Below, piece by piece: positions 11,118-32,688 of a stretch of 34,120 nt of DNA. The translations under genes were made by a program, and so were the position numbers. Every line of letters starts with the position of its first letter. Within the stretch, counting starts at the first letter, position 1. The stretch is taken from NCBI GenBank assembly GCA_018657645.1, contig JABHWT010000281.1:1-34120 (forward strand), in the 5' to 3' direction. Origin of the DNA: Halieaceae bacterium. Its GTDB lineage: Bacteria; Pseudomonadota; Gammaproteobacteria; Pseudomonadales; Halieaceae. The notes beneath the pieces were generated by a model. It was not told where the DNA came from. It saw nothing but the letters and a program-made list of their open reading frames with translations, and did no database searches.

Positions 11118-11915
11118 ATGCAGTACACCGATTATGAAACTTTAAACCTGAAGCGAACCGGGAAAATTCTGACAGTAACGCTTAATCGGCCGGAGCAGTA
11201 CAATGCGGCAAATGCCCTGATGCACCAGGAACTGGTGCGTGTTTTCCAGGAGATCAACCACGACGTCGACACCCATGTTGTCGTGCTGACAGGTGCAGGC
11301 AAGGCTTTTTCGGCGGGCGGCGACATCAAGGCTATGTTGAAGTCTCTGGATGACCATCAGAGATGGGCCGAGAGCATGCGAGAGGCTCGCGATCTGCTCT
11401 ACGCTATTGTAGATCTCGACCGCCCCATCATCGCCAGAATAAACGGTCATGCAGTGGGTGTGGGAGCAACCATCGCTCTGTTTTGCGACATCACATTCGC
11501 TGTCGAAAGTGCACTCATCGGCGACCCTCACGTCAAGGTTGGGCTTACTGCCGGCGATGGCGGCGCACTGATATGGCCATTGCTTATTGGCCATGCCAGG
11601 GCCAAACGGTTACTGCTTACCGGAGACACTGTCAGCGCTGCCCAGGCTGCCGAATTGGGACTGATAACAGAAGCTGTACCCTCTCTGGAGGAATTGGACA
11701 CCAAAGTGGACGCAGTAGCGGAGCAACTGGCAGCGGGAGCATCAGTGGCAATTCGAACGACCAAGCGAGCGGCGAATATGTTGTTGCGCCAACAACTGGA
11801 TGCAGTGATAGATGGACACCTGGGCCTGGAGACCCTCTCTCACCTCACCAACGACCGAAGGGAGGCCGCCTATGCATTCCGAGACAAGCGCAAGCCCGTG
11901 TTCACGGGAACATAA
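11118..11915 (+). CDS. Crotonase-family (enoyl-CoA hydratase/isomerase-like) protein
   Basis: 265 residues with the crotonase fold: oxyanion-hole strands FSAGGDI (64-70) and NGHAVGVGA (109-117). By alignment with rat mitochondrial hydratase, the two catalytic glutamates are replaced: T118 stands where GGGCE has Glu144 and H138 (GDPHV) where QPE has Glu164. An Asp at 147 (AGDGG) lies where MenB-type crotonases have a conserved DGG Asp. It may therefore be an isomerase, hydrolase or C-C lyase rather than a simple hydratase (inference). It is first in the plus-strand catabolic run, divergent from an ACAD and 132 bases before the next ACAD, with a dyad and promoter between. Confidence 0.88.
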   Translation: MQYTDYETLNLKRTGKILTVTLNRPEQYNAANALMHQELVRVFQEINHDVDTHVVVLTGAGKAFSAGGDIKAMLKSLDDHQRWAESMREARDLLYAIVDLDRPIIARINGHAVGVGATIALFCDITFAVESALIGDPHVKVGLTAGDGGALIWPLLIGHARAKRLLLTGDTVSAAQAAELGLITEAVPSLEELDTKVDAVAEQLAAGASVAIRTTKRAANMLLRQQLDAVIDGHLGLETLSHLTNDRREAAYAFRDKRKPVFTGT

Positions 11916-11918
11916 GAA

Positions 11919-11944
11919 TTCCAACATATATAACTATGTTGAAA
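11919..11944 (+). promoter_or_regulatory. Inverted repeat, candidate operator
   Basis: CAACATA-TATAAC-TATGTTG, a perfect 7-bp dyad, extended after one mismatch by TT/AA. Its right arm overlaps the -35 box of the promoter at 11939-11967. The arms are AT-rich with no T-tract, so it suits a protein-binding site better than a terminator. Confidence 0.55.
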
Positions 11945-11967
11945 ATTTCGATCAATACAGTTATGGT
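11939..11967 (+). promoter_or_regulatory. Sigma70-type promoter ahead of the ACAD/CoA-transferase genes
   Basis: TTGAAA, 17-base spacer, TATGGT. It lies between the crotonase stop and the ACAD start at 12048, so this part of the run can be expressed separately from the crotonase. Confidence 0.5.
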
Positions 11968-12047
11968 CTTTGGCGTCGCACCTATTTGCATAATATCGGT
12001 ATACCACTGAGTTAAACAGCCCGCGGCCCTGGACGCCATACATCAAT

Positions 12048-13214
12048 ATGCAAATCATCCAGTCCTCTTTAAACGACGAATTCCGCGACAAAGTACGGGC
12101 TTGGCTGCATTCGAATGTCCCCAAAGAGCAACGACCGAAACGGGGTCGGGCCATGCGGGAATTTGATACACAGTGGCAACGCACACAGTTTGAAGCTGGC
12201 TGGGCTGGTCTCGCCTGGCCCAGAGAGTACGGGGGCCAGGGGTTCTCGCTTATTCAGCAAATGATCTGGATGCAGGAGTACGCTTTGGCTGGAGCCCCTG
12301 CCGGCGGTGCAATGTTCGTCGCAACAACACATGCGGGTCCGACGCTGATAACCCACGGCACCGAAGCACAAAAAGCGTTTCACTTACCCAAAATACTAAG
12401 CGGAGAGTCCGTCTGGTGCCAGGGCTTTTCAGAACCCGGGGCCGGGTCCGACCTGGCCGGTCTGAGCACCAAAGCGCAGATTGATGGTGAATACCTGGTT
12501 ATAAATGGTTCAAAAATATGGACCAGTTACGCTAAAGTCGCCGACTATCAGGAGCTCCTGGTACGCACTGATCCCCAGTCGAGCAGGCACAAGGGAATAT
12601 CATGGGTGATTTGCGACATGCATGCACCCGGTATTAGTGTGCGCCCCATTATGTCCATGTCCGGGTTGGATACGTTTTGTGAGGTTTTTTACGACGACGT
12701 ACGCATCCCCCTGGACCGGGTTGTCGGAGAACTCAACAATGGCTGGCGTATTGCCATGACCACACTTGGGTTTGAACGGGGAACCGCGACAATCGCTCAT
12801 CAGATAGAATTGTCCCGCACCGTCGACGCACTCCTTGAAATAGCAAAAAAAGCCGACTCGTCAGGCACCGGCGAGACGCCTATTGATGACACATCGGTTG
12901 CAGCTGAGCTAGCTGTACTTCGAGCTGAGGTAGCCACCCTGCGTTCTATGACATCGTTAACTATCTCGCGCAATCTGCATCAGGACGTTCCGGGACCGGA
13001 GGGGGCAATTGTCGCATTGTTCTTTTGTGAGCTGGCCCGACGTGTCTATGCCATGGCCATTACACTGCTGGGACCTATAGGCCTGGAACGCGACACCAAT
13101 GGACGCGACTGGCCACTGGAATATCTGGAGGCTTATAAATGGGCAATCGGTGGCGGCACCTCGGAAATCAGACGTAACCTGATAGCCGAGCGCGTGCTTG
13201 GCCTGCCTAAATAG
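12048..13214 (+). CDS. Acyl-CoA dehydrogenase, large catalytic subunit of a heteromeric pair
   Basis: 388 residues. ACAD loops CQGFSEPGAGSDL (124-136) and WTSYAKVADYQELLVRTD, and C-terminal GGGTSEIRRNLIAERVLG. Gly replaces Glu at the MCAD position; E243 (LGFERG) is at the IVD/LCAD catalytic position. It is followed after 10 bases by the small ACAD gene that lacks such a Glu, the arrangement of mycobacterial ChsE-type alpha2beta2 enzymes (FadE26-FadE27, FadE28-FadE29). Substrates of such enzymes are bulky or branched CoA thioesters. ATG 12048 has no strong Shine-Dalgarno sequence. Same strand as the carboxylase genes. Confidence 0.9.
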   Translation: MQIIQSSLNDEFRDKVRAWLHSNVPKEQRPKRGRAMREFDTQWQRTQFEAGWAGLAWPREYGGQGFSLIQQMIWMQEYALAGAPAGGAMFVATTHAGPTLITHGTEAQKAFHLPKILSGESVWCQGFSEPGAGSDLAGLSTKAQIDGEYLVINGSKIWTSYAKVADYQELLVRTDPQSSRHKGISWVICDMHAPGISVRPIMSMSGLDTFCEVFYDDVRIPLDRVVGELNNGWRIAMTTLGFERGTATIAHQIELSRTVDALLEIAKKADSSGTGETPIDDTSVAAELAVLRAEVATLRSMTSLTISRNLHQDVPGPEGAIVALFFCELARRVYAMAITLLGPIGLERDTNGRDWPLEYLEAYKWAIGGGTSEIRRNLIAERVLGLPK

Positions 13215-13224
13215 GATTCTCGAT

Positions 13225-14256
13225 ATGATCATCGACCTGTCACCGACTGAAGATCAGGCAATGATTCGGACCAGTGTAGCTGACCTGCTGGACAGTGTAC
13301 TGCCACTGGACAGACTTCTTAAGGACCACAATCACCTAGCCAGCGCAGAGCTATCCTCCTGGTCCAGCTTTGCCGATCAGGGTTTATTTGGCCTGGCCAT
13401 CGACACCGAAAGTGGCGGCACCGGCTACTCCATCGCAGAACAAGTCGTGGTCTGCAACGAGTTTGGCCGCCACCTGGTCTCCCCTATAACGATGGCGACA
13501 ATGTTGGCCACCCAGCTGGCCGTACGCGCGGGGCTAACCGACGTTGTCCGGTCATTAATTGGCGGTGACAAACGCGCCGCCTTTGCCAATCCAGTAGCTA
13601 ACATAGATTACAACGCAGGCGGGACTGCGGAAGTTCAGGTGATAGATGGAACCGGCGCCGATTACATCATCCTGATCGACGAAGAACGGGCACTGCTTTT
13701 CAATGGCAACGCGTGCGAATTTCTGCGTTCTGTACCAGCCATTGACGAAACTATCAACATAGACCGGCTCGGGTTGCCTCTCGATCAGACGCTTGTTCAT
13801 TCAAAAGATGACCTGTCGACATGCCGTCACCACACGCTTATGCTGGCGGCCTATTTGTTAGGCATGGCCGAGGTCACCCGAAACATGGCTGTGGACTACG
13901 CCAGGATACGGGAGCAATTTGGCCAGCCCATAGGTAAGTTTCAGGCGGTAAAGCATATATGCGCAGATATGGCGGTTCGGGCTGAGGCTGCCCTGGCGCA
14001 AACGTTTTATGCAGCGACCCTGGCATCTGTCGACCATCCAAACGGCGATTCTGAAGCGGCATCTGCAAGATTGATCGCAAGCCGGGCAGCCTTGGATAAC
14101 GCAAGGGCAAATATACAGGTCCATGGGGGAATGGGCTTTTCCGCCGAGTGCACTGCACATTTTTTCCTCAAGCGCGCTCATATTATTACCGCCCTGAACG
14201 CAGCCCCCCTGGCAGCACAGTCAAAAATTCTGGCAGACCTGGAGCCCCTGTCATGA
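13225..14256 (+). CDS. Acyl-CoA dehydrogenase, small non-catalytic subunit
   Basis: 343 residues from ATG 13225 (TAGGA in front); an in-frame GTG/ATG further upstream would overlap the previous gene and add unconserved residues. N-terminal helical domain, shortened middle domain, then the FAD/dimer segment ARIREQFGQPIGKFQAVKH and C-terminal HGGMGFSAECTAHFFLKRA. No Glu occurs at either known catalytic position. Such subunits complete the FAD site of a partner. The stop overlaps the start of the CoA-transferase (ATGA at 14253-14256), so the two are translationally coupled. Confidence 0.88.
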   Translation: MIIDLSPTEDQAMIRTSVADLLDSVLPLDRLLKDHNHLASAELSSWSSFADQGLFGLAIDTESGGTGYSIAEQVVVCNEFGRHLVSPITMATMLATQLAVRAGLTDVVRSLIGGDKRAAFANPVANIDYNAGGTAEVQVIDGTGADYIILIDEERALLFNGNACEFLRSVPAIDETINIDRLGLPLDQTLVHSKDDLSTCRHHTLMLAAYLLGMAEVTRNMAVDYARIREQFGQPIGKFQAVKHICADMAVRAEAALAQTFYAATLASVDHPNGDSEAASARLIASRAALDNARANIQVHGGMGFSAECTAHFFLKRAHIITALNAAPLAAQSKILADLEPLS

Positions 14257-16049
14257 GTCTCTGGCGTAGTATTGTCGACGCTAAAATCAACACACCGCAG
14301 CCAGACACAATCGACAAGCAAATGGAGTTGGGACAGGCTATAAAACGGTTTGTACGCCCCGGCATGAAAATTAATCCCGTTAGCTTACAGTCGCGGGCCA
14401 CTGCCGCCACCTATGAGTTATGCCGTCAGTTTGTCGGAAAAAATCCACAGTTTGAATTCATCTCCTCATCGCTTAGTGGAAATTATCTACAACTTGTTCA
14501 CTTAGGACTGATCAAAAAAGCCGTTGTATCATTTGCCGGCGAAGGATACCCCACGCCGGGTCCCAGTTCGGTCATGCGATGGGCTTTAGAACAGCCTGGA
14601 TTTGAAATCGAAAACTGGACCATGCTCACTATATCCCAACGATTAATGGCCGGCGCAATGGGCGTTCCATTTATCACTACTCGCTCCATCACCGGCAGCA
14701 CCATGGCCACAGAAAACAACGCTGCGGGCAGCTTTGCCGAAATAGCAGATCCCTTCAATCCCGGTCAGACCCAGGGCGTGGTGCGAGCCTACAATCCTGA
14801 CATCGCTTTTGTTCATGCGTGGGCGGCAGACAAGGCGGGAAATGCGATCTGCTTTCCACCCTACCAGGAGAACATCTACGGTGCGCTGGCGGCCCGCGAG
14901 GGTGTAGTGGTAACGGCACACAAAATAGTGTCGACTGAGTTTATCAGGCGCTACTCTCACCTGGTACGTATACCTGCTGAAGTGGTGGTATCAGTAAGCG
15001 AAGCGCCCTTTGGCTCCCATCCCTACGGGAACTTCTCCCAGGGTATCGAAGAGTTGCGGCCCTATGCCAACGATTATGCGTTTATGCGAGCTCACCGCGA
15101 GGCCCAGAACTCAAAGCGGGACTACGACGCGTGGATTGACGAATGGATATTGAACATTCAGGATCACGATGATTACCTGAACAAACTCGGCCCCAGGCGA
15201 ATTGAAACAATCTACAAGGCCGCAGAACCGGAATCGTGGAAGCAAGAGCTGGACACACATGCTATCAATCTGGACACGGCGGGTAGTCCCAGCCCCGTTG
15301 AAGTAATGATTGTTCAGGCAGCCCGCGAGATTTCAACACGGATCGAGAAACAGGGGTATAAAACAGTACTCTCAGGTGTCGGGCAGGCTACTTTAATGTG
15401 CTGGCTCGCCTATCACCAACTCAGAGAAAAAGGCATCGAGTTTGCGCTTATGGCCGAAACGGGCATGTACGGCTTCGACCCGCGCCCCAGCGATCCATTC
15501 CTTATCAACTATCGCAACCTGCCCACCACGACTATGCTGACAGATGTGTTTGAAGCACTTGGGTTGCATGGGTGTGGCAGTGATAATAGTTGTCTGGCAA
15601 CCATTGGGGCAGGCCAGATCGACAAGTTCGGAAACATTAATTCCACGCGCACTGCTGCCGGAGATTTTATCGTCGGCTCTGGCGGTGCCAATGACATTGT
15701 GACCGCCGCATCGGAAACTGTGGTTGTCGCTGGCCAACGCAGCCAGGCCTTTGTGGAAAAGGTCGACTATATCACCAGTCCTGGCAGCAAAGTTCGTTGC
15801 GTCATATCAACCATGGGCCGTTTCGAAAAGAATGACGACAACGAGTTGGTTCTCTCCGCCATTTTTATCCGACAAGATCAATCTCGCAAGGAGATTATTG
15901 CAGCCATCTGCGAACGCTGCAGCTGGCCTTTGAAAATCTCACCTGAAGTGGAGGAACTGGCACCTCCCTCAGACGAAGAACTGGCGCTGCTTAGGGTCTT
16001 CGATCCCGAGCGCTTTTTCCTCGGAAAGCCCGTCAAGCCCGATCTATAG
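14253..16049 (+). CDS. Fused alpha-beta CoA-transferase (family I-like)
   Basis: 598 residues from ATG 14253, chosen for the ATGA overlap with the ACAD stop and because the longer frame from 14148 adds unrelated residues. Residues about 30-330 form an alpha-type CoA-transferase domain and about 345-598 a beta-type domain with ALMAETGMYG (E402 in an ExG setting, the place of the catalytic Glu in family I), GAGQIDKFGNIN and VGSGGANDI. GctAB, ScoAB and IpdAB normally have the two halves as separate genes. The GSGGANDI segment recalls IpdB, which opens steroid rings as a hydrolase, so transferase and C-C hydrolase are both possible. Context between ACADs and a ketone carboxylase suggests activation of a keto acid to its CoA ester. 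Confidence 0.85.
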   Translation: MSLWRSIVDAKINTPQPDTIDKQMELGQAIKRFVRPGMKINPVSLQSRATAATYELCRQFVGKNPQFEFISSSLSGNYLQLVHLGLIKKAVVSFAGEGYPTPGPSSVMRWALEQPGFEIENWTMLTISQRLMAGAMGVPFITTRSITGSTMATENNAAGSFAEIADPFNPGQTQGVVRAYNPDIAFVHAWAADKAGNAICFPPYQENIYGALAAREGVVVTAHKIVSTEFIRRYSHLVRIPAEVVVSVSEAPFGSHPYGNFSQGIEELRPYANDYAFMRAHREAQNSKRDYDAWIDEWILNIQDHDDYLNKLGPRRIETIYKAAEPESWKQELDTHAINLDTAGSPSPVEVMIVQAAREISTRIEKQGYKTVLSGVGQATLMCWLAYHQLREKGIEFALMAETGMYGFDPRPSDPFLINYRNLPTTTMLTDVFEALGLHGCGSDNSCLATIGAGQIDKFGNINSTRTAAGDFIVGSGGANDIVTAASETVVVAGQRSQAFVEKVDYITSPGSKVRCVISTMGRFEKNDDNELVLSAIFIRQDQSRKEIIAAICERCSWPLKISPEVEELAPPSDEELALLRVFDPERFFLGKPVKPDL

Positions 16050-16090
16050 CCCGCCACATGAAATATTACAGGTACTTCGCGCCGTCCAAA

Positions 16091-16119
16091 TTGTCTCGCC
16101 CAAATCCCTATGATATTCT
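16091..16119 (+). promoter_or_regulatory. Possible promoter of the carboxylase genes
   Basis: TTGTCT, 17-base spacer, TATTCT, in the 139-base gap between the CoA-transferase and acxA. This allows separate expression of the carboxylase. Confidence 0.4.
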
Positions 16120-16132
16120 CAAGTCAATATAT

Positions 16133-16146
16133 GGAAACTTGTTTCC
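16133..16146 (+). promoter_or_regulatory. Palindrome upstream of acxA, candidate operator
   Basis: GGAAAC-TT-GTTTCC, a perfect 6-bp dyad with a 2-base centre, 13 bases after the -10 box at 16114-16119 and 42 bases before acxA. It would lie in the 5' leader and could bind a repressor. Confidence 0.4.
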
Positions 16147-16188
16147 TAAATACACCGACATAATAATTTCTCGAGGTTGTACTCCAGT

Positions 16189-18336
16189 ATGCGACGTTAT
16201 CTAGCAGCCTGTGACGCAGGTGGCACCATGACCGATGTCATTTTAGTCGACGAGGAGGGCAATTCCGTCGTCGGCAAGGCCCCCACTACACCGCACGACG
16301 AAAGCATCGGTTATATGGAATCGATGATTGAAGCTATGGACTACATGGGTATACCCAAAGAGCAACAGGGTACATTTGGCAAACAATTGGAGACCTCGAT
16401 TTACACCGGCACGTCCATGCTCAACTGCGTAATCAATATGTCAGGTTATAAAACCGGCCTCATAACGACCAGAGGTTTCGAGGACATCACCGCCCAGGGC
16501 CGCGGTAAACAGACTTTTATCGGCCTCCAGTGGTCAGAAATCACTCACATGCAATATCGAAAGCATCGCACTCCACTGGTACCGAGAAAACTGACTCGCG
16601 GCGTAACCGAACGAATCGATATGTTTGGCAATATCGCCATTCCTATGTACGAGCATGATGTGGAGCAGGCGGCTCGCGAATTAATCGTCGACGAGCAGTG
16701 CGAATCCATCGCCATTGTCTTTTTGCAGTCTTATATTAACGATCAACACGAGCAACGCGCCGGTGAAATCGTGCGTCGGGTAATGACCGAGGCGAGCCGC
16801 GATATTCCTATAGAGCTGTCCTGCCTGGTGGCTCCAACTGCCAGGGAAATATCCCGCGCCAACTCGACCATTGTCCAGGCTTATGCCTCGGATCCTGCGC
16901 GCAAGCAGTTGTTCCGGATTGAAGATGAACTAAAAAAGATGGGCTACCAGAGCAGTCTGAAGACCGTTCTTGGCTATGGTGGTGTCACCAACATCCGCTA
17001 CCCCCGCTTGTTTGAGGCGGCCATGTCGGGACCTATTGGAGGCCTGATGGGTGCCAGGTACCTCGGTAGCGTCATAGGCGAGAACAATATCGTGTGCTCC
17101 GACGTTGGTGGCACTTCGTTTGATGCCGGCGTCATCAGTTCGGGTGTGTTGCCTATTGACAGGGAGCCCGGCTTTCAAAACATGTATGTCAATGCGCCGA
17201 TGCTCGGCATTACTTCCATCGGGGCTGGAACCGGCACCTACATTCGAGTCGATCCTGCAACCAACCGCATCAAACTTGGACCGGATTCCGCTGGAGGAAC
17301 GCCGGGACCGACATTCATGGAAACCGGCAATACTACGCCCACGATTAATGACTGCAATTTATTGCTGGGCATTCTGGACGAGAATAACTACCTGGGCGGA
17401 AAGGTAAAGGTTAACAAGGAGGTCTCCTACCGCCTGTTTAAGCAGAAGGTGGCCGACCCTCTTAAAATGGATGTTTACGACGCGGCCGAGGTATGCCTGG
17501 AACTGCTCAATGTCATGATGCGGGAGCACCTGACCCAGAATCTGATGATTGGTTATGATCTGAGAGACTATACGCTGCTCGGTTATGGCGGTGGCGGTCC
17601 CCTGCACCTTCTGCCCTACGCCGGAGACAATCCCTACAAGGCAGTATGCACCGTACCCTGGGCCGGCGGGTTCTCAGCCTGGGGAGGGGCTTGCATGGAT
17701 TACGCTCACCGCCGCCACAAATCGATAACCGCCATGATCGCACCCCAGATGAGCACCAAGGAAAAGCTGGCATCCGTGGCGCCGGTAGTTGAGATATGGA
17801 GCACGCTTCGAAGTGAGTTGTTCAAGGAATTAGTCGATGAGGGCTTCGCACCCGAACAGATTGAACTACAACCCGTGGCCTACGTGCGCTACTACGGCCA
17901 GCTGGAAGACCTGGAAGTGAGTTCGCCGGTCGAGCGCCTGGATAGCCAGGAAGATCTCGACACACTATTAGCTGCCTTCGATGACCTCTATACAAAATTG
18001 TTCACCCTGGCTGCCAAACCCGATCACGGCACCTACAGCATTACCGAGGTGGCTGTTGTCGCCAAAGTCGCCACGGTAAAACCAAAGCTGATTGAGCAGC
18101 CTTTGGCGGCCAAAGAACCGCCGGCAAGTGCCTGCCAGGGCACACGCCAGCTGTATCGCAATGGAGCGTGGCAGGATGCTGATATCTTTAAAATGGAAAA
18201 CCTGTTACCAGGAAACGAAATGGACGGTCTGGCCGTTATCCAGGCTTCCAATACAACATTGTTTGTTCCACCCGAATGGCATGTCAAAATTGACAAATAC
18301 AACATTTACTGGATGACCAGGAAGGGCGAAGCATGA
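16189..18336 (+). CDS. acxA: Acetone carboxylase-type beta subunit (hydantoinase A/oxoprolinase family)
   Basis: 715 residues, equal in length to the Xanthobacter beta subunit. ASKHA nucleotide-binding motifs are present: CDAGGTMTD (8-16), CSDVGGTSFD (about 304-313) and GYGGGGPLHL (465-474). In the family this subunit activates the ketone as enol phosphate, and bicarbonate as carboxyphosphate, using ATP. It is followed by alpha and gamma genes in the known acxABC order, and the presence of gamma separates it from hydantoinase and 5-oxoprolinase. The start is ATG 16189 with GAGG upstream; a TTG at 16177 has no room for an RBS. The ketone may be acetone or larger; an acetophenone-carboxylase-like role is less likely given three subunits rather than five. 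Confidence 0.88.
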   Translation: MRRYLAACDAGGTMTDVILVDEEGNSVVGKAPTTPHDESIGYMESMIEAMDYMGIPKEQQGTFGKQLETSIYTGTSMLNCVINMSGYKTGLITTRGFEDITAQGRGKQTFIGLQWSEITHMQYRKHRTPLVPRKLTRGVTERIDMFGNIAIPMYEHDVEQAARELIVDEQCESIAIVFLQSYINDQHEQRAGEIVRRVMTEASRDIPIELSCLVAPTAREISRANSTIVQAYASDPARKQLFRIEDELKKMGYQSSLKTVLGYGGVTNIRYPRLFEAAMSGPIGGLMGARYLGSVIGENNIVCSDVGGTSFDAGVISSGVLPIDREPGFQNMYVNAPMLGITSIGAGTGTYIRVDPATNRIKLGPDSAGGTPGPTFMETGNTTPTINDCNLLLGILDENNYLGGKVKVNKEVSYRLFKQKVADPLKMDVYDAAEVCLELLNVMMREHLTQNLMIGYDLRDYTLLGYGGGGPLHLLPYAGDNPYKAVCTVPWAGGFSAWGGACMDYAHRRHKSITAMIAPQMSTKEKLASVAPVVEIWSTLRSELFKELVDEGFAPEQIELQPVAYVRYYGQLEDLEVSSPVERLDSQEDLDTLLAAFDDLYTKLFTLAAKPDHGTYSITEVAVVAKVATVKPKLIEQPLAAKEPPASACQGTRQLYRNGAWQDADIFKMENLLPGNEMDGLAVIQASNTTLFVPPEWHVKIDKYNIYWMTRKGEA

Positions 18337-20528: not shown

Positions 20529-20539
20529 GGAGAGCCACT

Positions 20540-24009: not shown

Positions 24010-24065
24010 ACATTGACACCCCTGTTAGTGATTGACAAAAATAGCTCAAATGCGGGACATTCCTT

Positions 24066-24683
24066 ATGCCAGACGAACTCAATGATTATAGTGGCTCTTA
24101 CAAAGCAGATCTTCAGTTTTCAGATTTCTCCAAGCCTGCTCTTATTCGGCTTTTACGAGCCTACCGAACAATTTTTGTCGGAATGATGGGTACCTGGAAC
24201 ACCGTTAACCGGCGTCGCATGTCGGTAGATGAGGCCTTTGAACTCGACGCAGATGTATACGAAGAACAACTCCGAAATTTTGAAGTACCTCTACTCAAGC
24301 AGGCCATGAACATCGAAGGCGATGATGTAGAAACATTACTGAAAATATTTCAAATGTGCCCCGATGGTGCCGGGGAGGATTTCTACGAATTTGATCACGA
24401 TCTTAAAAACTCCGACCACGCGGTACTTACTTTTACCCAGTGTCCTACGCTGTCCTATTTTGAATCAAAGGGCAGCACCAAGGACATTGAGTGCCTCTGT
24501 GGACCCGGAGGTGTTGAGGATCGCGCCTTTATTGAGTTTTGCAAAATCATGAATCCAAAAATGAAATGTACTGCCATACATGTTCCCCCACGAGAGGATA
24601 AAGATGGCGTTTGCTGCCAATGGGAATTCAAGGTGGACAGGGAAGCGCCGGACGACGCGGTCATCCCAAGTCGCTCTGTATAA
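24066..24683 (+). CDS. DUF6125-like protein of unknown function
   Basis: 205 residues, soluble. A helical N-terminal part (FSKPALIRLLRAYRTIF, then W) is followed by a C-terminal part with ordered cysteines: FTQCPTLSYF, ECLCGPGG, a helix, MNPKMKCTAIHVPPRE and VCCQWEF. The layout with Cys-Pro, NP...PPR and CC-W resembles DUF6125 and L-2-amino-thiazoline-4-carboxylate hydrolase-related proteins (from memory, not certain). The function is not known. It stands between two acyl-CoA ligase genes and has its own promoter at 23981-24009, so a role in handling the CoA substrate or in regulation is possible. Confidence 0.65.
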   Translation: MPDELNDYSGSYKADLQFSDFSKPALIRLLRAYRTIFVGMMGTWNTVNRRRMSVDEAFELDADVYEEQLRNFEVPLLKQAMNIEGDDVETLLKIFQMCPDGAGEDFYEFDHDLKNSDHAVLTFTQCPTLSYFESKGSTKDIECLCGPGGVEDRAFIEFCKIMNPKMKCTAIHVPPREDKDGVCCQWEFKVDREAPDDAVIPSRSV

Positions 24684-24736
24684 GGGCCCTACATAGCAGC
24701 ATGCTGCCGCACTCCTAAAGTACAGGCACTACACCC

Positions 24737-26356: not shown

Positions 26357-26396
26357 CTGATCCGTCTTTCTCGTCGTAGAAAAAACTGGGTGATAT

Positions 26397-27059
26397 ATGG
26401 CAGAAACAGGCCCCACTTTAACGCGCCGCGAAAGGAAAATAGCAACACAACAGGCCATCCTCGATGCGGCCATCACGGCTTTTGCCAGGCAGGGTTACGA
26501 TGGTACGAATTTTCGTGATATTACTGCGCTAAGTGGAGCCAAGCGTGCACTAATCCTCTACTACTACAAAAACAAAGAGGCACTGTGGAAAAAATCGGTG
26601 CAAACTGTATCGGATAGATTCAGTCATCTGATGTCACAGCAGCTAAAAGAGCGCGAACACAAACTACAGGATGACAGTGACGAGGCACAGGTTCGAATGG
26701 CGCTAAATGCCTTTCTCGACACGCTCGAGCAAGTTCCAGAATTTGGTCAAATTCTACTGCGCGAGGGGACTACCGAAGGGCCGCGCCTGGATTGGCTTGC
26801 CAAACACGCTTCGCCACCCTCTGCCATCGGGTTTCGTTTGAAAAACAAGGAGCTGAACCGCAGGATCAATCGCACTGTGCTTCGCGATATCTTAAGTAGT
26901 ACGCTCATTTCGATAATTACGTTAGCCCCTCTACTTGATGCATCGCTCGCAGCCGCGCTGCGCACAAAAAATGCAGGCATTAACCCGTTGTCAAAGAAAA
27001 GAAAGGCCGAGCTTGTTGAACATATGGTGGCGCTGGCGCTATCGGACCTTACCCAATAA
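26397..27059 (+). CDS. TetR-family transcriptional regulator
   Basis: 220 residues. The N-terminal helix-turn-helix covers about residues 15-60 (ILDAAITAFARQGYDGTNFRDI, then ALILYYYKNKEALW), the standard TetR layout. The C-terminal ligand/dimer domain is helical and has no family I can name. It ends 18 bases from the convergent ACAD gene and is last of the plus-strand run, 40 bases after the second ligase. The best candidate targets are the palindrome at 32753-32776 and the related half-site near 24013-24031, both just after -10 boxes; an acyl-CoA or free acid ligand is the usual case in such loci. Confidence 0.9.
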   Translation: MAETGPTLTRRERKIATQQAILDAAITAFARQGYDGTNFRDITALSGAKRALILYYYKNKEALWKKSVQTVSDRFSHLMSQQLKEREHKLQDDSDEAQVRMALNAFLDTLEQVPEFGQILLREGTTEGPRLDWLAKHASPPSAIGFRLKNKELNRRINRTVLRDILSSTLISIITLAPLLDASLAAALRTKNAGINPLSKKRKAELVEHMVALALSDLTQ

Positions 27060-27077
27060 GCTCGACCTGGGCACTCT

Positions 27078-28265
27078 TTATCTCGAGGGTGGCAATCCAA
27101 TTGCGAACAGGGCAATCAAATCCCGCAATACCTCGTTGGATCCTCCACCGAACGTTAGCAGGCGCATTGTTAAAAAATCTCGCTGTATTCGTCCACGGCT
27201 TGGCGCAAGCTCGTCTGGCGGCTGCAGGCCACCGTGGAGCCCCATCATCTCCATACAGGAACCGGTAACGTCCTGCATTAGCTCGGTGCCAAATACCTTG
27301 GTCATCGATGCCTCTGCCATCGATTCAATGCCCTGGGTGATTTGCCAGGCCACGCGATAATTGAATAGTTTAAGCACCTCCATTCGCATTGTCAGATCGG
27401 CCAGTTTGCTACGCACCCATGGTTTTTCAATGACTTTGCAGCCATCGACGGTATTGTCTTTTGCCCAGGCTGTCATCAGCTCAATGTGACGCCCCGTTTT
27501 AGAGTGCGGTACGAGCCCGACACGCTCCATAGCCAGTTGCGAATTAATGTAGCTCCAACCTCTGTTTTCCTCGCCAATGAGGCAATCTACCGGAACCCTG
27601 ACATCGTCATAAAAAGTGGCATTGGACCGGAATCCACCCATCGCGTTAATCGGGTTGACCGTGATGCCGGGGCTATTAATATCAACCATGAAGATTGATA
27701 TTCCCTTGTGTTTTTTTACATCTGGATCCGTTCTCGCCGCCAGCCAGATATAGTCGCAGTGGTGCGCCAAACTGGTAAAGACCTTCTGCCCGTTGATAAT
27801 GTAGTGATCGCCATCTCTTACCGCTCTGGTCTGAAGAGACGCCAGATCTGTGCCTGATGCAGGCTCGGTGTAACCTATAGCGATATTGAGCTCACCGGTC
27901 AAAATCGGCGGTAGAAATCTCTGCCTTTGATCGTCCGTCCCATGCTTCATCAATGTCGGCCCAACGGTATTCAAAGCCAACATGGGTAACGGGAGGCCGT
28001 AGTACCCCATCACCGTGTCGAAAAACACATACTGATCGATCGCACTACGCCCCTGACCACCATACTCAGCAGGCCAACCCAAGCCCAACCAACCATCCTT
28101 GCCCATCTGTCTGAGTAGTGCATTGTAGTGAGGGGGCGTGTCCGGTCCTCCACCCTCCGGGCAGATAAGCAATTCCGCCTCCAGCTCGGGCGTCAGCCGC
28201 TGTTGCAGGTAATCGGTGATCTCCCTGTGCAAGCGGTGCTGATCAGCTGTCAGCTCAAAATTCAT
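27078..28265 (-). CDS. Acyl-CoA dehydrogenase, large catalytic subunit (ChsE/FadE26-28-like)
   Basis: 395 residues. ACAD loops GYTEPASGTDL (131-141) and VFTSLAHHCDYIWLAARTD, and C-terminal FGGGSNEVLRDLIALFAIG. Glu247 (AMERVG) is at the IVD/LCAD-type catalytic position; the same number is reported for mycobacterial ChsE4 (from memory). The adjacent upstream gene encodes a small ACAD lacking this Glu. Last gene of the minus-strand aldolytic module. ATG 28265 is preceded by TGAGG. The neighbours (MaoC, DUF35, Ltp-like) point to a branched or ring-attached acyl-CoA substrate. Confidence 0.92.
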   Translation of the reverse strand: MNFELTADQHRLHREITDYLQQRLTPELEAELLICPEGGGPDTPPHYNALLRQMGKDGWLGLGWPAEYGGQGRSAIDQYVFFDTVMGYYGLPLPMLALNTVGPTLMKHGTDDQRQRFLPPILTGELNIAIGYTEPASGTDLASLQTRAVRDGDHYIINGQKVFTSLAHHCDYIWLAARTDPDVKKHKGISIFMVDINSPGITVNPINAMGGFRSNATFYDDVRVPVDCLIGEENRGWSYINSQLAMERVGLVPHSKTGRHIELMTAWAKDNTVDGCKVIEKPWVRSKLADLTMRMEVLKLFNYRVAWQITQGIESMAEASMTKVFGTELMQDVTGSCMEMMGLHGGLQPPDELAPSRGRIQRDFLTMRLLTFGGGSNEVLRDLIALFAIGLPPSR

Positions 28266-28293
28266 TTACAAAACCTCATGTGTCCCAACTGTC

Positions 28294-29418
28294 TTATAGC
28301 AAATCACCAAGTCGCTGGAGCTGCACGCGAGCTGACCCAAACTTCAATTCCAGGGCCTTCGCTCTGCGGAAATAAAAATGCAGGTCGCTCGCCATATCCA
28401 CACCCACGCCACCATGCAGTTGGTGGGTCACTGCCGATGCCTTTTGACAGGCATCGCTGGTGAACGCTTTGGCGATGGCGACCTCCTTCGAACAGGGCTC
28501 ATCGCGAGCTAGCAAAGACAGGGCCTGGTAGGTTGTCCACCTGGCACCCTGTATCATCGTGTACATATCGGACATCTGATGTTGCACGGCCTGGAAAGAC
28601 CCAATTGGGCGAGAAAACTGCTCCCTCTGCTTTACATAGTCTGCTGTTTTCTGAAGCTGATACTCCGCTCCGCCAAGCATATCGGCACAGGCCAACACAC
28701 TGGCTTTTTGAAAGACAGAACTCACTATCTTCAGCCCCTGATGAATTGTTCCGACAATACAGCTGGCCGGGACTATGACTTCATTGAGCTCGAGCCGGTA
28801 CTGCTTGTCAGGGGCAATGGTTTCAATCGCTGTTAAGCTAATCCCGGGGGTACCTGCATTCACCAAAAACAGGGTACATCCACCCTCACTACCGGCGGCG
28901 CCCCCGGAACGTGCCAGAATAAGCAGGTAGCCTGCAATGTCAGCATAGGGCACAAATTGCTTAATGCCGTCGATAACGTAGTCATTACCCCGAGCTACAG
29001 CCTTGGTTGAAATATACTTCGGTTCATTGGACACCTCTGGTTCCTCGATGGCAGGACTCAGAATCATATCTCCCGCGGCGATAGCCGAAAGCAGTTCCAT
29101 TTTCTGCGAATGATTGCCCGCCGCATCCAGCAGCGTCGACGCAATCACTACCGGAAATAGTGGGCTGTCAAAAGCGGAGCGGCCCATCTCTTCAAGTAGA
29201 ATTGCAACTTCAACGAGACCCAATCCAACGCCGCCGTACTGCTCTGGAATGTTGATTCCGGGCCAGCCCAGTTCAGCCATTTTTTTCCAAAGCACAGGGG
29301 AAAACCCCGAGTCGCTCTTTTCAAGATCTCTGATGCACTGTGAGCCGCACTCCGCCTCCAGAAACTTGCGGCACAGGTCCTTCAATATTTGCTGCTCGCT
29401 GGTATAGTTAAAATCCAT
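28294..29418 (-). CDS. Acyl-CoA dehydrogenase, small subunit
   Basis: 374 residues. N-terminal helical domain (EQQILKDLCRKFLEAECG), shortened middle domain, KQREQFSRPIGSFQAVQH and C-terminal HGGVGVDMASDLHFYFRRA. No catalytic Glu at either position, as in the silent subunits of alpha2beta2 ACADs. The gap to the large-subunit gene is 28 bases, and 9 bases separate it from the DUF35 gene upstream, so it is one transcript. Confidence 0.9.
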   Translation of the reverse strand: MDFNYTSEQQILKDLCRKFLEAECGSQCIRDLEKSDSGFSPVLWKKMAELGWPGINIPEQYGGVGLGLVEVAILLEEMGRSAFDSPLFPVVIASTLLDAAGNHSQKMELLSAIAAGDMILSPAIEEPEVSNEPKYISTKAVARGNDYVIDGIKQFVPYADIAGYLLILARSGGAAGSEGGCTLFLVNAGTPGISLTAIETIAPDKQYRLELNEVIVPASCIVGTIHQGLKIVSSVFQKASVLACADMLGGAEYQLQKTADYVKQREQFSRPIGSFQAVQHQMSDMYTMIQGARWTTYQALSLLARDEPCSKEVAIAKAFTSDACQKASAVTHQLHGGVGVDMASDLHFYFRRAKALELKFGSARVQLQRLGDLL

Positions 29419-29427
29419 ACTACAGCC

Positions 29428-29859
29428 CTATTCCACCTTTTTAAAAAATGGAAGTGCCCACTCCTCGGTAACCTCTTTGAAACACAACTCCACAGGCATA
29501 TCAAAATCGATCTCGTCCGGATTGCAGTCCACCATGTTTGACACTATTCGCACCCCTTCCTCATTGTCCATTTCGATGAGAACAACCTCAAAGGGCACTC
29601 TGAACGCCGGGTGTACTTCCTGACGTAAAACCGTCCAGCTGTATACACGCCCCTTGCCACTGGATTCAACCCACACCCAATTCTGAGCCTTACAGTTTGG
29701 ACACATGACCCGCGGGGGATGGCTAAACGTTTCACATTCACCACATTTTTGAAACACCAGTTTACGTTGCTTGATTCCCTCCCAGTAGCCATCCTCAAAC
29801 GACTCCCATACGGGGTTATAAAAGTGCTGCATATATTTTGGATTGTATTCAACGGACAT
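29428..29859 (-). CDS. DUF35 Zn-ribbon/OB-fold protein, partner of the thiolase-fold lyase
   Basis: 143 residues. The rubredoxin-like zinc ribbon has C39, C42, C53 and C56 (CGEC...CPNC), followed by an OB-fold with GKGRVYSWTVLRQ and FEVVLIEMDNEEGVRIVSN. An N-terminal helix (VWESFEDGYWEGIKQRKL) is typical. In actinobacteria the DUF35 domain of ChsH2 binds and activates the aldolase Ltp2; here it is a separate protein, 4 bases downstream of the Ltp-like gene, supporting the same partnership. AAGGGG stands before ATG 29859, within the end of the previous gene. Confidence 0.92.
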   Translation of the reverse strand: MSVEYNPKYMQHFYNPVWESFEDGYWEGIKQRKLVFQKCGECETFSHPPRVMCPNCKAQNWVWVESSGKGRVYSWTVLRQEVHPAFRVPFEVVLIEMDNEEGVRIVSNMVDCNPDEIDFDMPVELCFKEVTEEWALPFFKKVE

Positions 29860-29863
29860 TTAC

Positions 29864-31039
29864 TCAATCCCCTTTAGTTAATATTAATGCGCTAGTGGGA
29901 ACGCCAAGACCGCCCGTGACAAGCACATTCTTTGCATTATCTACCTGCGAGGTAGAGGTGCCACGTATCTGCCTGACACCCTCGGCTATCAAGTTCATTC
30001 CGTGAATATATGCCTCCGATAATTGCCCTCCAGAGGTGTTGACAGGCAACTCTCCGCCCAGACGGATACGATCGCCTCCCTCACAAAATGCACCGCCCTC
30101 TCCATACTCACAGAACCCATATGCTTCGAGCTGCATCGGAACCGTAGCGGTAAAAGCATCGTACAATTGAGCCACATCAATGTCTTTCGGCGTCATTTGA
30201 GCCATTTTGAAAACGTCTTTACCTGCTTCAATACACTCGGGCAAGCCGATATTTTTGCGGTAATAGGAGGTCATGCTATGCGCGTCATAAGACGTTCCCC
30301 AACCAACACCCGAGACAAAGGCGGGCTTTTGCTTGAGCTCCATCGCCCTCTCAGGCGTTGTTACAATCAAGGCGACAGAGCCATCATTTTCGAGGCAGGT
30401 ATCGTGTAAGGTGAAAGGGTCACTTGCCACCGGGGAAAACATATATTCTTCAATAGTCAGCGGTCGACCATAGAACATCGCCCTTGGGTTTCTCAGGGCA
30501 TTCTCCCTTTGCACTAACGCGACCTGACCGAGTTGCTCCCGGGTTGCCCCCGTTTCATGCATCCAGCGTTTGGCAAACATAGCGACCCAGGAAGTCGGGC
30601 TGGCAAAACCAAACGGCATGTAGTAGCTGTATCGATACTCGGCTGGAATCGCTGTAGGGCGACCGTAGCGAACCGTGCCGCTGGCAGGTTTTAGCGAGCG
30701 ATAGCACACGACGTAGTTCGCCACACCGGATGAGACCGCCATAGCGGCATGTGCGACCGTTCCGCAGCTGGCTCCACCACCCCACGGGGTTTGTCCCATA
30801 TATTTCAAATTGGGAATGCCCATACTGCGAGCAACGTCAATATCCGGCGCCATTTCAGCGGCATAAATCCCCGCCGTACCGTAACTCGACATTCCATCTA
30901 TTTGATTTATTTCCAGACCGGCATCATCACAGGCAGCCGTTATTGCATCCACCGCCAGATGAATTTCACTACGCCCGGCATTCCTGGTGAATTCCGTCGA
31001 ACCAATACCTACTACGCACGCTTTGTTCCTCAGTGTCAT
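29864..31039 (-). CDS. Thiolase-fold Ltp2-like aldolase (SCP-x thiolase family)
   Basis: 391 residues of SCP2/SCP-x thiolase-like fold. Two tyrosines, Y293 (QLYDAFT) and Y344 (SEAYIHG), fall almost exactly where Ltp2 has its catalytic pair Tyr294/Tyr344 (from memory of the Thermomonospora curvata enzyme). The C-terminal CxG cysteine of true thiolases is replaced (VTGGLG), while a Cys at 92 (GGASCGT) remains near the nucleophile position. Inference: retro-aldol cleavage of a beta-hydroxyacyl-CoA to a ketone and a short acyl-CoA, with the DUF35 protein. AGGAG precedes ATG 31039. True thiolysis is the alternative. Confidence 0.87.
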   Translation of the reverse strand: MTLRNKACVVGIGSTEFTRNAGRSEIHLAVDAITAACDDAGLEINQIDGMSSYGTAGIYAAEMAPDIDVARSMGIPNLKYMGQTPWGGGASCGTVAHAAMAVSSGVANYVVCYRSLKPASGTVRYGRPTAIPAEYRYSYYMPFGFASPTSWVAMFAKRWMHETGATREQLGQVALVQRENALRNPRAMFYGRPLTIEEYMFSPVASDPFTLHDTCLENDGSVALIVTTPERAMELKQKPAFVSGVGWGTSYDAHSMTSYYRKNIGLPECIEAGKDVFKMAQMTPKDIDVAQLYDAFTATVPMQLEAYGFCEYGEGGAFCEGGDRIRLGGELPVNTSGGQLSEAYIHGMNLIAEGVRQIRGTSTSQVDNAKNVLVTGGLGVPTSALILTKGD

Positions 31040-31057
31040 ACCACTACTCTCCTTACA

Positions 31058-31498
31058 TTAGCCTTTTTTCGGCAGTGACATGATCGCTGTGCCCGCAGCG
31101 TGTGGCCCCATTTGATTATCACCGGCAAAGCCAAGCTCTATCAGATGTTCGCCCCCCTCTTCCCACTTGCGGGTAATTCTGGCATTCATCGCCATATTGT
31201 CGTTGGGGAAATTGGGAACCGAGAGTTTGATAGAGATCTCTTTTATCCTGGCGCCGGGGCCAGCCCATTGCTCCAGATAGGTGGAAATCAACCCGTTGGA
31301 GGTCAGGATATTCATAAACACATCCGGAGCCCCCTTGGACTGGGCAAAGTCCCTGTCGTGATGCACTGGCATAAAATCATGCGTCGCCCAAGTTGCCCCC
31401 ATGGCAATGGTAGTCGTGTCAATCTTCCTGTTTTTCTCGGGTAGATCCTGCTTTATTTCTACATCGTCCCAGTATACGTTCTGCGCTGCCTGATCCAT
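31058..31498 (-). CDS. MaoC-like hot-dog enoyl-CoA hydratase
   Basis: 146 residues from ATG 31498 (AGAGGAA in front); an ATG at 31519 would add seven residues and lies closer to the previous gene. Single hot-dog domain. HDFMPVHHD gives D41 and H46, the Asp-x4-His dyad of R-hydratases and of ChsH1. Known of the family: adds water to 2-enoyl-CoA. The small size implies dimerisation with another hot-dog protein, two of which are encoded directly upstream. Confidence 0.88.
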   Translation of the reverse strand: MDQAAQNVYWDDVEIKQDLPEKNRKIDTTTIAMGATWATHDFMPVHHDRDFAQSKGAPDVFMNILTSNGLISTYLEQWAGPGARIKEISIKLSVPNFPNDNMAMNARITRKWEEGGEHLIELGFAGDNQMGPHAAGTAIMSLPKKG

Positions 31499-31552
31499 CT
31501 TATGATTCCTCTTTAACATTCATAGTGCCAACCGATCACATCTAATTACGCC

Positions 31553-32107
31553 TCAACCGGCATAGAGTCTTCTTGTAACCATGGGGGGTCTGTAAACCAG
31601 CACATCAAACGATTGCTTGCAGAGCAGCTCATCGTGCTGGTTGTAAAATTGGTATAACATGGTGTATTTGCGACCGACTCCCTGGCGCGACAAATGGTCA
31701 TAAGTAGAGAACTTTGCCATCTGTAGTGTCCAGAACACTTCATCGCCTACCTTTATGCTCTTGAAATGCTGCTGCGTTTGCGCAGTGGCCATAACACCGG
31801 TATAGCCCTCTTCTTCAATAATCACGTTTACCTGATTATTGGGATCCGTCGGGTATTGAAACTTACCTTCCACAAACTGCTCCAGACAGGGCCTCAGGGA
31901 ACCCAGGCAGAAAACGTGCACCATTGCCGATGGAGCCAAAAGCCCTTTGTGCTCCGTTGTCTTAGCGTACTCCTCGTCTGTGTAGATAGGGTTAGTGTCC
32001 TGCATGTACTGGCACCAGTGGTCCACATCCGTGTCGCTAACGACATCGTGTGGAGGGTGTCTGGGGCTGTCCACGCCGATCAAATGCTCAACTTTCGAAT
32101 AGTCCAT
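31553..32107 (-). CDS. FAS1-like (MaoC N-type) hot-dog protein, non-catalytic partner candidate
   Basis: 184 residues from ATG 32107, chosen because AAGGAAG precedes it and MDYSKVEHLIG matches the start of the next paralogue (MDLSKMKELVG); an upstream ATG at 32167 is less likely. Hot-dog fold with DVDHWCQYMQDTNPIYTDEEYA, in which Tyr stands where hydratases have the catalytic His, and VFWTLQMAKFST. It is probably a substrate-binding half for the MaoC hydratase, as the MaoC half of ChsH2 is for ChsH1 (inference). Confidence 0.82.
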   Translation of the reverse strand: MDYSKVEHLIGVDSPRHPPHDVVSDTDVDHWCQYMQDTNPIYTDEEYAKTTEHKGLLAPSAMVHVFCLGSLRPCLEQFVEGKFQYPTDPNNQVNVIIEEEGYTGVMATAQTQQHFKSIKVGDEVFWTLQMAKFSTYDHLSRQGVGRKYTMLYQFYNQHDELLCKQSFDVLVYRPPMVTRRLYAG

Positions 32108-32187
32108 GGTAGCTTCCTTGGGACTGTCGAAGCGCAGGATACCGTAGTCATTTCTCATCTTGATCAATCCCTCTGATACGATAAAAA

Positions 32188-32688
32188 TCAGTGTTGTAAT
32201 TGAATGCTCTTCATTTGAGCCACAGTGTATTTCTGTTGACTGACCACATTTCCATCCTGGTTGGTGAACGTGTAATCAAGGTCAATCCGATAGCCTGCAC
32301 CCAAAGACGTTTCCACCTCGGCAGATGACAAACCGGCCAAAGTAACGGTATAACTCAGTCGGTCGCCAATATTTACCGGGAGCAGAAACTTCTGCTCCAG
32401 TGCTATACCCAACCCTACCTTATAACCGGCGCTTTCCAGTTCCTCGATCACAAGCTCGTGGGGCTCTGTAGGTGGACGGGGTTGCGCACTCCACAAGGGC
32501 GGCATAGTCCAGGCCATTAACATAGCGTTGGGCGCTGTTGTCACGCTGTCACCGAATTCCTTGTAGTTGCGGTCATCCTCTTTAATCACCTCACACCAAT
32601 GTCGAACATCCGATATGCTTATATTGTGGCGCAATGTCGTACTGCTAGATTCCTGCCCAACAAGTTCTTTCATCTTCGAAAGATCCAT
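32188..32688 (-). CDS. FAS1-like (MaoC N-type) hot-dog protein, paralogue of the next gene
   Basis: 166 residues. MDLSKMKELVG and DVRHWCEVIKEDDRNY align with the 31553-32107 protein (DVDHWCQYMQDTNPIY), so the two are tandem duplicates. The NPxH active-site motif is changed to RNYK, so it is almost surely not catalytic alone. First gene of the minus-strand module, with GGGAG before ATG 32688 and the promoter/palindrome at 32753-32805 upstream. Confidence 0.8.
   Translation of the reverse strand: MDLSKMKELVGQESSSTTLRHNISISDVRHWCEVIKEDDRNYKEFGDSVTTAPNAMLMAWTMPPLWSAQPRPPTEPHELVIEELESAGYKVGLGIALEQKFLLPVNIGDRLSYTVTLAGLSSAEVETSLGAGYRIDLDYTFTNQDGNVVSQQKYTVAQMKSIQLQH

Follow-up and report, generated by a model that had tools for sequence, protein, structure and literature searches.

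Does a pair of neighboring operons, one for an ATP-dependent ketone carboxylase and one for an Ltp2-type retro-aldolase, encode a single pathway, and which ketone would then pass between them? This question is raised by a 34,120-base stretch of a Halieaceae bacterium (hereafter the window), which is the complete contig C237 of a 5.41 Mb draft genome (491 contigs, 88.94% complete). An earlier note on this DNA described an AcxABC operon on the forward strand, an igr/Ltp2-type operon on the reverse strand and a TetR gene between them, a gene content that open reading frames and protein families confirmed. Our comparison with related loci points, with about an even chance of being right, to an AcxABC clade that takes part, together with retro-aldolases, in breaking down steroids or similar polycycles by an oxygen-independent, 2,3-seco-like route. 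Ring cleavage would leave a methyl ketone (or a ring ketone), and this is the probable AcxABC substrate.

The carboxylase genes of the window lie on the forward strand in the order AcxB (beta subunit, HyuA family; 16177..18336), AcxA (alpha subunit of a divergent clade, HyuB family; 18333..20528) and AcxC (gamma subunit; 20525..21091). The nearest solved relative of all three is acetone carboxylase (534 bits to 5svb_B, 382 bits to 5m45_A and 154 bits to 5svb_C, respectively), whereas acetophenone carboxylase scores far lower (338, 132 and 39 bits for AcxB, AcxA and AcxC). AcxC also matches PF08882 at 134 bits, and the alpha, beta and PF08882 gamma subunits expected of an acetone carboxylase are thus all present. 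A tree built from 22 AcxA sequences of the window-type clade and 11 canonical ones, with L054, L055, L057 and L058 omitted for having fewer than 600 residues in one piece, separated this clade from canonical acetone carboxylases with a support of 1.000. Identity was 61–95% inside the clade and 27–36% between the clade and the 11 canonical copies. According to the available part of PMC5543143, the manganese ligands of the acetone carboxylase alpha subunit are His150, Asp153 and His175, with Glu89 as the fourth ligand in the AMP-bound state. The first three were retained in 22/22 clade sequences, and the Glu89 position was Asp in all 21 readable ones (one gap), window AcxA included, but Glu in 11/11 canonical copies. 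The window set therefore resembles AcxABC of Xanthobacter autotrophicus (5svb, 5m45; PMC5543143) in its alpha-beta-gamma composition, PF08882 and three ligands, and differs from canonical acetone carboxylase in its separate clade, the Glu89-to-Asp exchange and its gene partners. Taken together, the acx run is predicted to encode a biotin-independent, ATP-driven ketone carboxylase of a separate clade.

This clade is rare among close relatives and scattered among distant ones. At E ≤ 1e-60, AcxA was found in 1/140 genomes of the family, which is the source genome itself, and in 6/369 genomes of a class sample, where the five besides the source genome were only 28–35% identical. A scan of genome contigs recovered 25 further AcxA loci at 60–75% identity, all from metagenome-assembled genomes labelled Myxococcota/Deltaproteobacteria, Acidimicrobiia and other Actinobacteria, Binatota, Gammaproteobacteria, Acidobacteria and others. 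Plasmids yielded no close relatives, as all 83 records with AcxA homologues were below 60% identity (31.5–33.7% for the best 40 of 83).

The gene neighborhoods of these 25 loci link the carboxylase to a retro-aldolase. Directly after AcxA/AcxC came a CoA-transferase III gene at 16/25 loci, molybdenum (Mo)-enzyme genes at six and the contig end at three, and a BadI-like crotonase gene followed downstream within the locus at nine. In the gammaproteobacterial locus L048, a single co-directional run comprises an acyl-CoA dehydrogenase (ACAD), CoA-transferase III, MaoC, a second ACAD, an enoyl-CoA hydratase (ECH), CoA-transferase III and AcxBAC, and continues with two CoA-transferases III, the BadI-like crotonase, a retro-aldolase paralogue that we call Ltp2B, and DUF35. 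Four loci of Acidimicrobiia/Actinomycetes (L037, L047, L054 and L056) instead carry AcxB, AcxA, the FAD, iron-sulfur (FeS) and Mo subunits of a Mo-enzyme, an amidohydrolase and Ltp2B, with a separate AcxC gene after AcxA in two of them (L037 and L047). After Ltp2B, three of the four hold a single reading frame of ~600 codons in which AcxC, DUF35 and an EchA19-like crotonase of the ECH type are fused (L037 12108-13913; L047 18812-20632; L054 18120-19931), and the contig of L056 ends at this position. In Myxococcota and others, AcxBAC precedes three CoA-transferases III; in G515, G516, G521 and G523 these are joined on the same contig by the BadI-like gene, three Mo subunits, an amidohydrolase, Ltp2B, DUF35 and ECH after Acx, and other genomes of the Myxococcota type hold this latter set on separate contigs. 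At many Myxococcota-type loci, a divergent run of electron transfer flavoprotein (ETF), DUF35 and LtpM genes flanks Acx on the opposite side.

The usual partner aldolase is thus Ltp2B, which has a YDCF motif and a His in place of the second Tyr. Its frequency was assessed by genome-wide searches for Ltp2B, the BadI-like protein and KshA_C in the source genome and 18 of the 25 locus genomes (n = 19), the genomes of L041, L042, L049, L050, L051, L052 and L058 being omitted. Ltp2B was found at no less than 66% identity in 16/19 genomes (counting the source genome, which supplied the query), and where AcxA and Ltp2B share a contig (9/19) the gap between them is 3.9–13.2 kb; in the rest they lie on different contigs. 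The BadI-like protein was present at a minimum of 71% identity in 17/19 genomes, again with the query genome counted and with an internal stop in the G524 copy, and the Mo large subunit occurred in the stretches examined of 16/19, those of G513, G514 and G524 being without it. As a control, 11 canonical acetone carboxylase loci from five genomes were inspected over ~9 kb on each side (two end early on one side), and Ltp2, DUF35, BadI, CoA-transferase III and Mo genes were found at 0/11. Other groups thus show the linkage of aldolase and carboxylase again, the 11 canonical loci lack both Ltp2 and DUF35, and the linkage is more than chance. A second tie is the luciferase-like (LLM class) flavin/F420 oxidoreductase that follows AcxC in the window (21165..22232, +; TIGR03617, an F420 family, 353 bits, over the cut-off of 278), as it is 51–60% identical to LLM genes in the partner modules of L038, L043, L054, L057, L087, L098 and L099, and this homology would connect the acx run itself to the modules of its relatives.

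Two candidates were rejected along the way. LtpM of Myxococcota was considered as an aldolase and dismissed on its thiolase-type GC(A/S)AG motif and the lack of YDxF in 5/5 aligned copies, and loci with LtpM alone were not counted as aldolase loci. In L047 and L054, Ltp2B seemed to have a long N-terminal extension, but this proved to be the amidohydrolase gene upstream, read out of frame. In its own right, LtpM (L038 2542-3720 and homologues) matches the PRK06059 lipid-transfer model, carries a thiolase Cys motif and is accompanied by DUF35 and ETF genes, like benzoylsuccinyl-CoA thiolase.

The same partners exist in the source genome. Contig C346 holds a KstD-like gene, an amidohydrolase-like gene (read as such, with no NCBIfam match), CoA-transferases, ECH, DUF35, Ltp2B, the BadI-like crotonase, further CoA-transferases, an old yellow enzyme (OYE)/BaiCD-like gene and an LLM-like gene, and its Ltp2B is 74% identical to that of L048. 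On C199, an AtcA-like Mo-enzyme and its FAD and FeS subunits are encoded together with CoxG and a KstD-like protein, and C146 (L150, G000:C146) carries a second AtcA-like large subunit with an amidohydrolase (PF04909; 62% identical to the L037 amidohydrolase). Beside these two C146 genes lie the alpha and beta genes of a type II dimethyl sulfoxide (DMSO)-reductase-family enzyme (14069-17966), of which beta scores 513 bits, over its cut-off of 481, and alpha 837 bits, under its cut-off of 985; steroid C25 dehydrogenase belongs to the DMSO-reductase family, as stated in the available part of PMC6678751. A glycyl-radical-enzyme activating protein lies in the same neighborhood (18032-18970; TIGR02494 346 bits, over cut-off). 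Because these partner genes are present on C346, C199 and C146, the acx run looks like one part of a larger pathway, split off from the rest.

The nature of that pathway is suggested by the Mo-enzyme. Degenerate primers for atcA, the gene of 1-testosterone hydratase/dehydrogenase, give a product of ~1100-1200 bases according to the available part of PMC5554518, and the three-subunit Mo-enzyme of the Acx loci, with FAD and FeS genes alongside, carries the atcA primer and motif signature. The reverse primer had 0/27 mismatches in L037, L099, L125 and L131 and one in L098, L126, L130 and L134, the forward primer had 2–6/23 mismatches in these eight loci, and the two sites were 1146–1149 bases apart (1146 in L037, L099, L125 and L131). 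Among 17 loci with both sites, 10 passed the primer pair filter, two pairs of loci representing the same gene. Mismatches numbered 8–9 and 6–7 in the chance pairs that this filter let through, so that for L130 and L135 the forward primer by itself tells little. The motif PSGNEYDSG was exact in 18/21 distinct Mo large-subunit genes covering the site and occurred in 5/140 family genomes with a single match each; the same five hold both a BadI-like gene and the Mo subunit. In the class sample, the BadI-like gene and the Mo subunit were each confined to the source genome (1/369). MhyADH, which acts on cyclohexenone-type substrates, was the outgroup in the atcA study as far as the available part of PMC5554518 tells, and the Mo-enzyme substrate may be another cyclic enone. 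The KstD-like and OYE/BaiCD-like proteins fit a 3-ketosteroid entry, although they score below curated cut-offs. KshA_C, with no copy in the source genome and copies in 9/19 overall, was discarded as an uninformative steroid marker.

The retro-aldolase run of the window is of a different kind from the Ltp2B clusters. In reverse-strand order it encodes a FAS1_DH-like hotdog subunit (32188..32688; PF13452 19.9 bits, under the gathering score of 22), a FAS1_DH/HadA-type hydratase subunit (31553..32167; PF13452 46 bits), a MaoC-type hydratase subunit (31058..31519; PF01575 29 bits), an Ltp2-type retro-aldolase (Ltp2A, 29864..31039; NF005892 499 bits, over the cut-off of 469), its DUF35 partner, which corresponds to the C-terminal oligonucleotide/oligosaccharide-binding fold and zinc ribbon of ChsH2 (29428..29859; PF01796 62 bits, PF12172 44 bits), and two ACADs (28294..29418, with ACAD domains and 155 bits to IpdE2, under cut-off; 27078..28265, with three ACAD domains). 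An ACAD pair, hotdog hydratase, DUF35 and Ltp2 thus stand in a single run, as in the igr layout of M. tuberculosis. Ltp2A (370 bits to T. curvata Ltp2, 6ok1_A) keeps both catalytic Tyr (Tyr294 and Tyr344 of TcLtp2) in the motifs YDAF and EAYIHG, with Ala in place of the oxyanion His of YDHF, whose replacement costs TcLtp2 only ~14-fold according to the available part of PMC12329534, which also gives the residue roles. Compared with the igr/Ltp2 system (ChsE1E2, ChsH1H2, Ltp2; T. curvata Ltp2-ChsH2, 6ok1), the ACAD pair, hotdog subunits, DUF35 and both Tyr are common, whereas in the window DUF35 is a gene of its own, Ala replaces the YDHF His and the run has an acx operon as neighbor. Ltp2B was likewise compared with the Sal bile-acid aldolase (PMC12329534, as far as available): a Tyr/Cys pair is found in both, with YDCF in Ltp2B versus YDCY in Sal, but Ltp2B sits in an Acx/AtcA-like cluster and its best model is NF005892 (lipid-transfer protein) at 345 bits, under the cut-off of 469.

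How far, then, are the carboxylase and the aldolase of the window itself connected? A window-type Ltp2A set adjoins Acx on the opposite strand, as in the window, at one of the 25 other loci (L056; 48% identity for Ltp2, 47% for MaoC, 34–40% for DUF35 and 32% for FAS1), and hydratase and ACAD parts of the set also occur in L047. The proposal of the earlier note that an aldolase and an ATP-dependent ketone carboxylase form one pathway is borne out by the shared clusters in several groups and by the AcxC-DUF35-ECH fusion, but the usual partner is Ltp2B, which in the source genome lies on C346, and not the window-type enzyme. The idea was right in kind, but both the aldolase that usually accompanies AcxABC and the likely pathway are different ones.

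In the 2,3-seco route, as given in the available parts of PMC6678751, PMC8399759 and PMC6208644, Delta1 and Delta4 steps precede AtcABC, which forms a 1,3-dione, a hydrolase yields the 1-oxo-2,3-seco-3-oic acid, and CoA activation is followed by a proposed retro-aldol loss of acetyl-CoA to a 2,5-seco 1,5-dione; HIP (3aα-H-4α(3'-propanoate)-7aβ-methylhexahydro-1,5-indanedione) has been detected. Ring-B cleavage and the ring-A hydrolase are described as unknown in the available parts of the reviews PMC6678751 and PMC8399759. We tentatively propose a scheme, possible though below an even chance, in which the clade uses CO2 as a helper group on the 2,3-seco methyl ketone to bring about ring-B cleavage towards HIP, with two retro-aldolases, CoA-transferases and the BadI-like crotonase. 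KstD-like and OYE-like enzymes would create the 1-en-3-one, an AtcABC-like enzyme would convert it to the 1,3-dione, and a hydrolase, perhaps the amidohydrolase, would open ring A to a 2,3-seco acid bearing a methyl ketone (C1-C2). A first retro-aldol reaction would release C3-C4 as acetyl-CoA and leave a C5 ketone. AcxABC would then carboxylate the C1-C2 methyl ketone, a step at which it is placed because this ketone would be a natural acetone-carboxylase-type substrate, and CoA transfer to the carboxylated product, for which the fused CoA-transferase of the acx run is a candidate activator, followed by cleavage would give acetyl-CoA and a C1 thioester. Together with the C5 ketone, this thioester would form a cyclic beta-ketoacyl-CoA, a BadI-type substrate, and the BadI-like crotonase could cut the C5-C10 bond of ring B, either ahead of carboxylation or following it, so that C5 would be released as an acid. 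What is then left on C9, a 2-methyl-branched thioester, would be shaped like the C3 side chain that is removed by ACAD, hydratase and Ltp2, so that a second Ltp2-type retro-aldol reaction, by the Ltp2A/DUF35/MaoC/ACAD set of the window, might release propionyl-CoA and leave the C9 ketone, that is, HIP. The single carboxylase, the two aldolases, the BadI-like crotonase and the several CoA-transferases would all find a role in this scheme, and we infer the order of its steps.

Several observations weigh against placing the clade in a 2,3-seco-like pathway. In the source genome, Ltp2B, the BadI-like gene, the Mo-enzyme and the other partners are on contigs other than C237, and Ltp2 relatives occur in 55/140 family genomes, outside the source genome always without Acx. 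Of the 19 Acx-clade genomes searched, G514 has Ltp2B as a 74% fragment, G510 and G524 have copies of only 55% and 49% identity, respectively, and no BadI orthologue was found in G510 and G514. Loci L046, L047, L054, L056, L057, L132 and L133 failed the primer pair filter, among curated models the Mo large subunit matches a CO-dehydrogenase-like one best (332 bits versus a cut-off of 950), and the AtcABC assignment is drawn from the primer signature and not from comparison with an AtcA sequence. The KstD-like proteins (495 and 568 bits) and the OYE/BaiCD-like protein (447 bits) fall short of their curated cut-offs of 789 and 793. BadI, a 2-ketocyclohexanecarboxyl-CoA hydrolase, and MenB are the closest families of the BadI-like crotonase, yet it stays under their curated cut-offs (222 bits versus 467.6 for BadI), and Asp163 and Tyr258, catalytic residues of MenB, are out of register. 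Some KshA_C-bearing genomes of the Acx clade may also use oxygen. Finally, in four relatives in the family (G026, G029, G043 and G051), which have BadI, Ltp2B and the Mo-enzyme, AcxA was not found at E ≤ 1e-60; AcxABC is therefore not obligatory for the module, and there must be an alternative route, such as hydrolysing the 1,5-dione directly.

Four other readings were weighed. One that we consider unlikely is a carboxylative ring opening, in which AcxABC would carboxylate a cyclic ketone (e.g., one derived by Ltp2) and, after CoA activation, the BadI/MenB-like crotonase would open the ring by hydrolysis; this would parallel the Baeyer-Villiger reaction but need no oxygen. It draws on the prevalence of the BadI/MenB-like gene in Acx-clade genomes (17/19) and its proximity to AcxA (9/25 loci), on PimC/PimD-like ACADs within the acx run, and on the known reaction of the Ltp2 family, which on a ring tertiary alcohol would give a ring ketone, but is weakened by the missed BadI cut-off, the MenB residues out of register and the four relatives with BadI and without Acx, and it explains the thiolase-like LtpM less well. 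The version of the earlier note, which we rate as quite improbable, has an isoprenoid-type branched acyl-CoA cut to an acyclic methyl ketone that is carboxylated, activated and thiolysed, as a biotin-free bypass of a beta-methyl branch. Marine bacteria are reported to carboxylate isoprenoid methyl ketones, which counts in its favor, and the window holds every enzyme class that it calls for except a thiolase. A literature search on carboxylation of phytone or isoprenoid ketones gave nothing relevant among the matches listed. For the final thiolysis, the window offers no thiolase; LtpM was seen at loci of other genomes, and the rest of the source genome was not searched for a thiolase. The bypass finds partial support, but it leaves the frequent AtcA-like, KstD-like, OYE-like and BadI/MenB-like partners unexplained; these indicate cyclic enones, and a steroid or polycycle route fits them better. 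The single occurrence of a window-type Ltp2 near Acx at other loci (L056) also speaks against it.

Little probability is likewise given to chance neighbors, that is, a small-ketone operon (acetone, butanone) and an unrelated side-chain-cleaving igr operon that happen to converge here. The two runs are indeed convergent and separate transcription units, and they did not co-occur in the family outside the source genome (AcxA 1/140, Ltp2 relatives 55/140). Against this stand the distinctness of the clade from canonical acetone carboxylases, the recurrent retro-aldolase neighbors with the gene fusion, and the same opposite-strand pairing in L056. Very improbable, in our judgment, is that the AcxABC-like complex is a hydantoinase- or lactamase-type hydrolase rather than a carboxylase: the HyuAB superfamily does include hydantoinases and caprolactamase, but the PF08882 gamma subunit is present, alpha and beta match acetone carboxylase best among solved structures, and three of the four manganese ligands are identical.

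Beyond the carboxylase, the gene list of the earlier note required amendment, since the acx run also has its own ACAD pair and ECH, and its CoA-transferase is one fused protein. The run opens on the forward strand with an enoyl-CoA hydratase/isomerase of the crotonase family (11118..11915; ECH_1 188 bits), followed by a large-type, PimC-like ACAD subunit (12048..13214; TIGR03204 232 bits, under the cut-off of 624) and a small-type, IpdE2/PimD-like one (13198..14256; NF050027 102 bits, under the cut-off of 450). The next gene encodes the fused alpha-beta class I CoA-transferase, which is glutaconate CoA-transferase-like (14253..16049; 1poi_A 81 bits) and whose likely start at 14253 is deduced from an ATGA overlap with the preceding gene. 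Its AETG aligns with SENG of SCOT, in which the Glu is presumably the functional residue, in a weak alignment of 16–18 bits per piece; an identity as an IpdAB-like ring hydrolase was dropped, the class I Glu region being retained in this alignment. After AcxBAC and the LLM gene come an MbcS-like acyl-CoA ligase (22307..23935; NF047394 466 bits, under the cut-off of 850), a DUF6125-like protein (24066..24683; PF19620 23.9 bits, under the gathering score of 27), a second acyl-CoA ligase (24737..26356; AMP-binding 198 bits) and the TetR-family regulator (26397..27059; TetR_N 42 bits). Upstream of the reverse-strand run, the C-terminal part of an OYE/FadH/BaiCD-like reductase gene (32915..34096, -; NF041087 203 bits, under the cut-off of 825; best stretch from profile position 286) is truncated by the contig end, and is a possible Delta4 reductase of the same pathway.

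Two further proteins were observed. A gene of the Rv3169 family lies downstream of the CoA-transferases in L038 (18040-19170), with homologues in L039, L041, L043 and L058, and adjoins the BadI-like gene in L038, L043 and L058. Elsewhere in the window, 4530-6359 (+) encodes a 609-residue protein with many similar NTA.G/NTTG repeats, whose C-terminal segment resembles a peptidase S74 chaperone domain.

Set against the anaerobic 2,3-seco pathway (AtcABC; Sterolibacterium, Steroidobacter, Thauera), the clusters described here are alike in the AtcA primer signature, the retro-aldolases and the type II DMSO-reductase-family pair that adjoins the second AtcA-like gene, and possibly in the KstD-like and OYE-like proteins, which score below curated cut-offs. 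They differ in that Acx/AtcA-like clusters also occur outside Proteobacteria, and in that the available parts of PMC5554518, PMC6678751, PMC8399759 and PMC6208644 mention neither a ketone carboxylase nor a BadI-like crotonase for the known pathway. No paper joining "acetone carboxylase" with "Ltp2" or with "steroid degradation" was found in a search that left most subscription papers outside, and none of the matches listed, judged by title and start of abstract, dealt with an Acx-aldolase-steroid combination. The component enzyme kinds are already known, and what is new is an AcxABC clade within a 2,3-seco-like cluster. Backed by a gene fusion and recurrent neighborhoods, this cluster offers candidates for ring-B cleavage and the ring-A hydrolase, and also for what becomes of the C1-C2 methyl ketone. 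If the 2,3-seco-like role is borne out, ketone carboxylation would be one more of the few oxygen-free ways to cut alicyclic skeletons, the ring-B gap would be filled, and the route would extend to uncultured Myxococcota, Acidimicrobiia, Binatota and Gammaproteobacteria, where its marker genes would reveal sites of sterol degradation in anoxic or marine settings.

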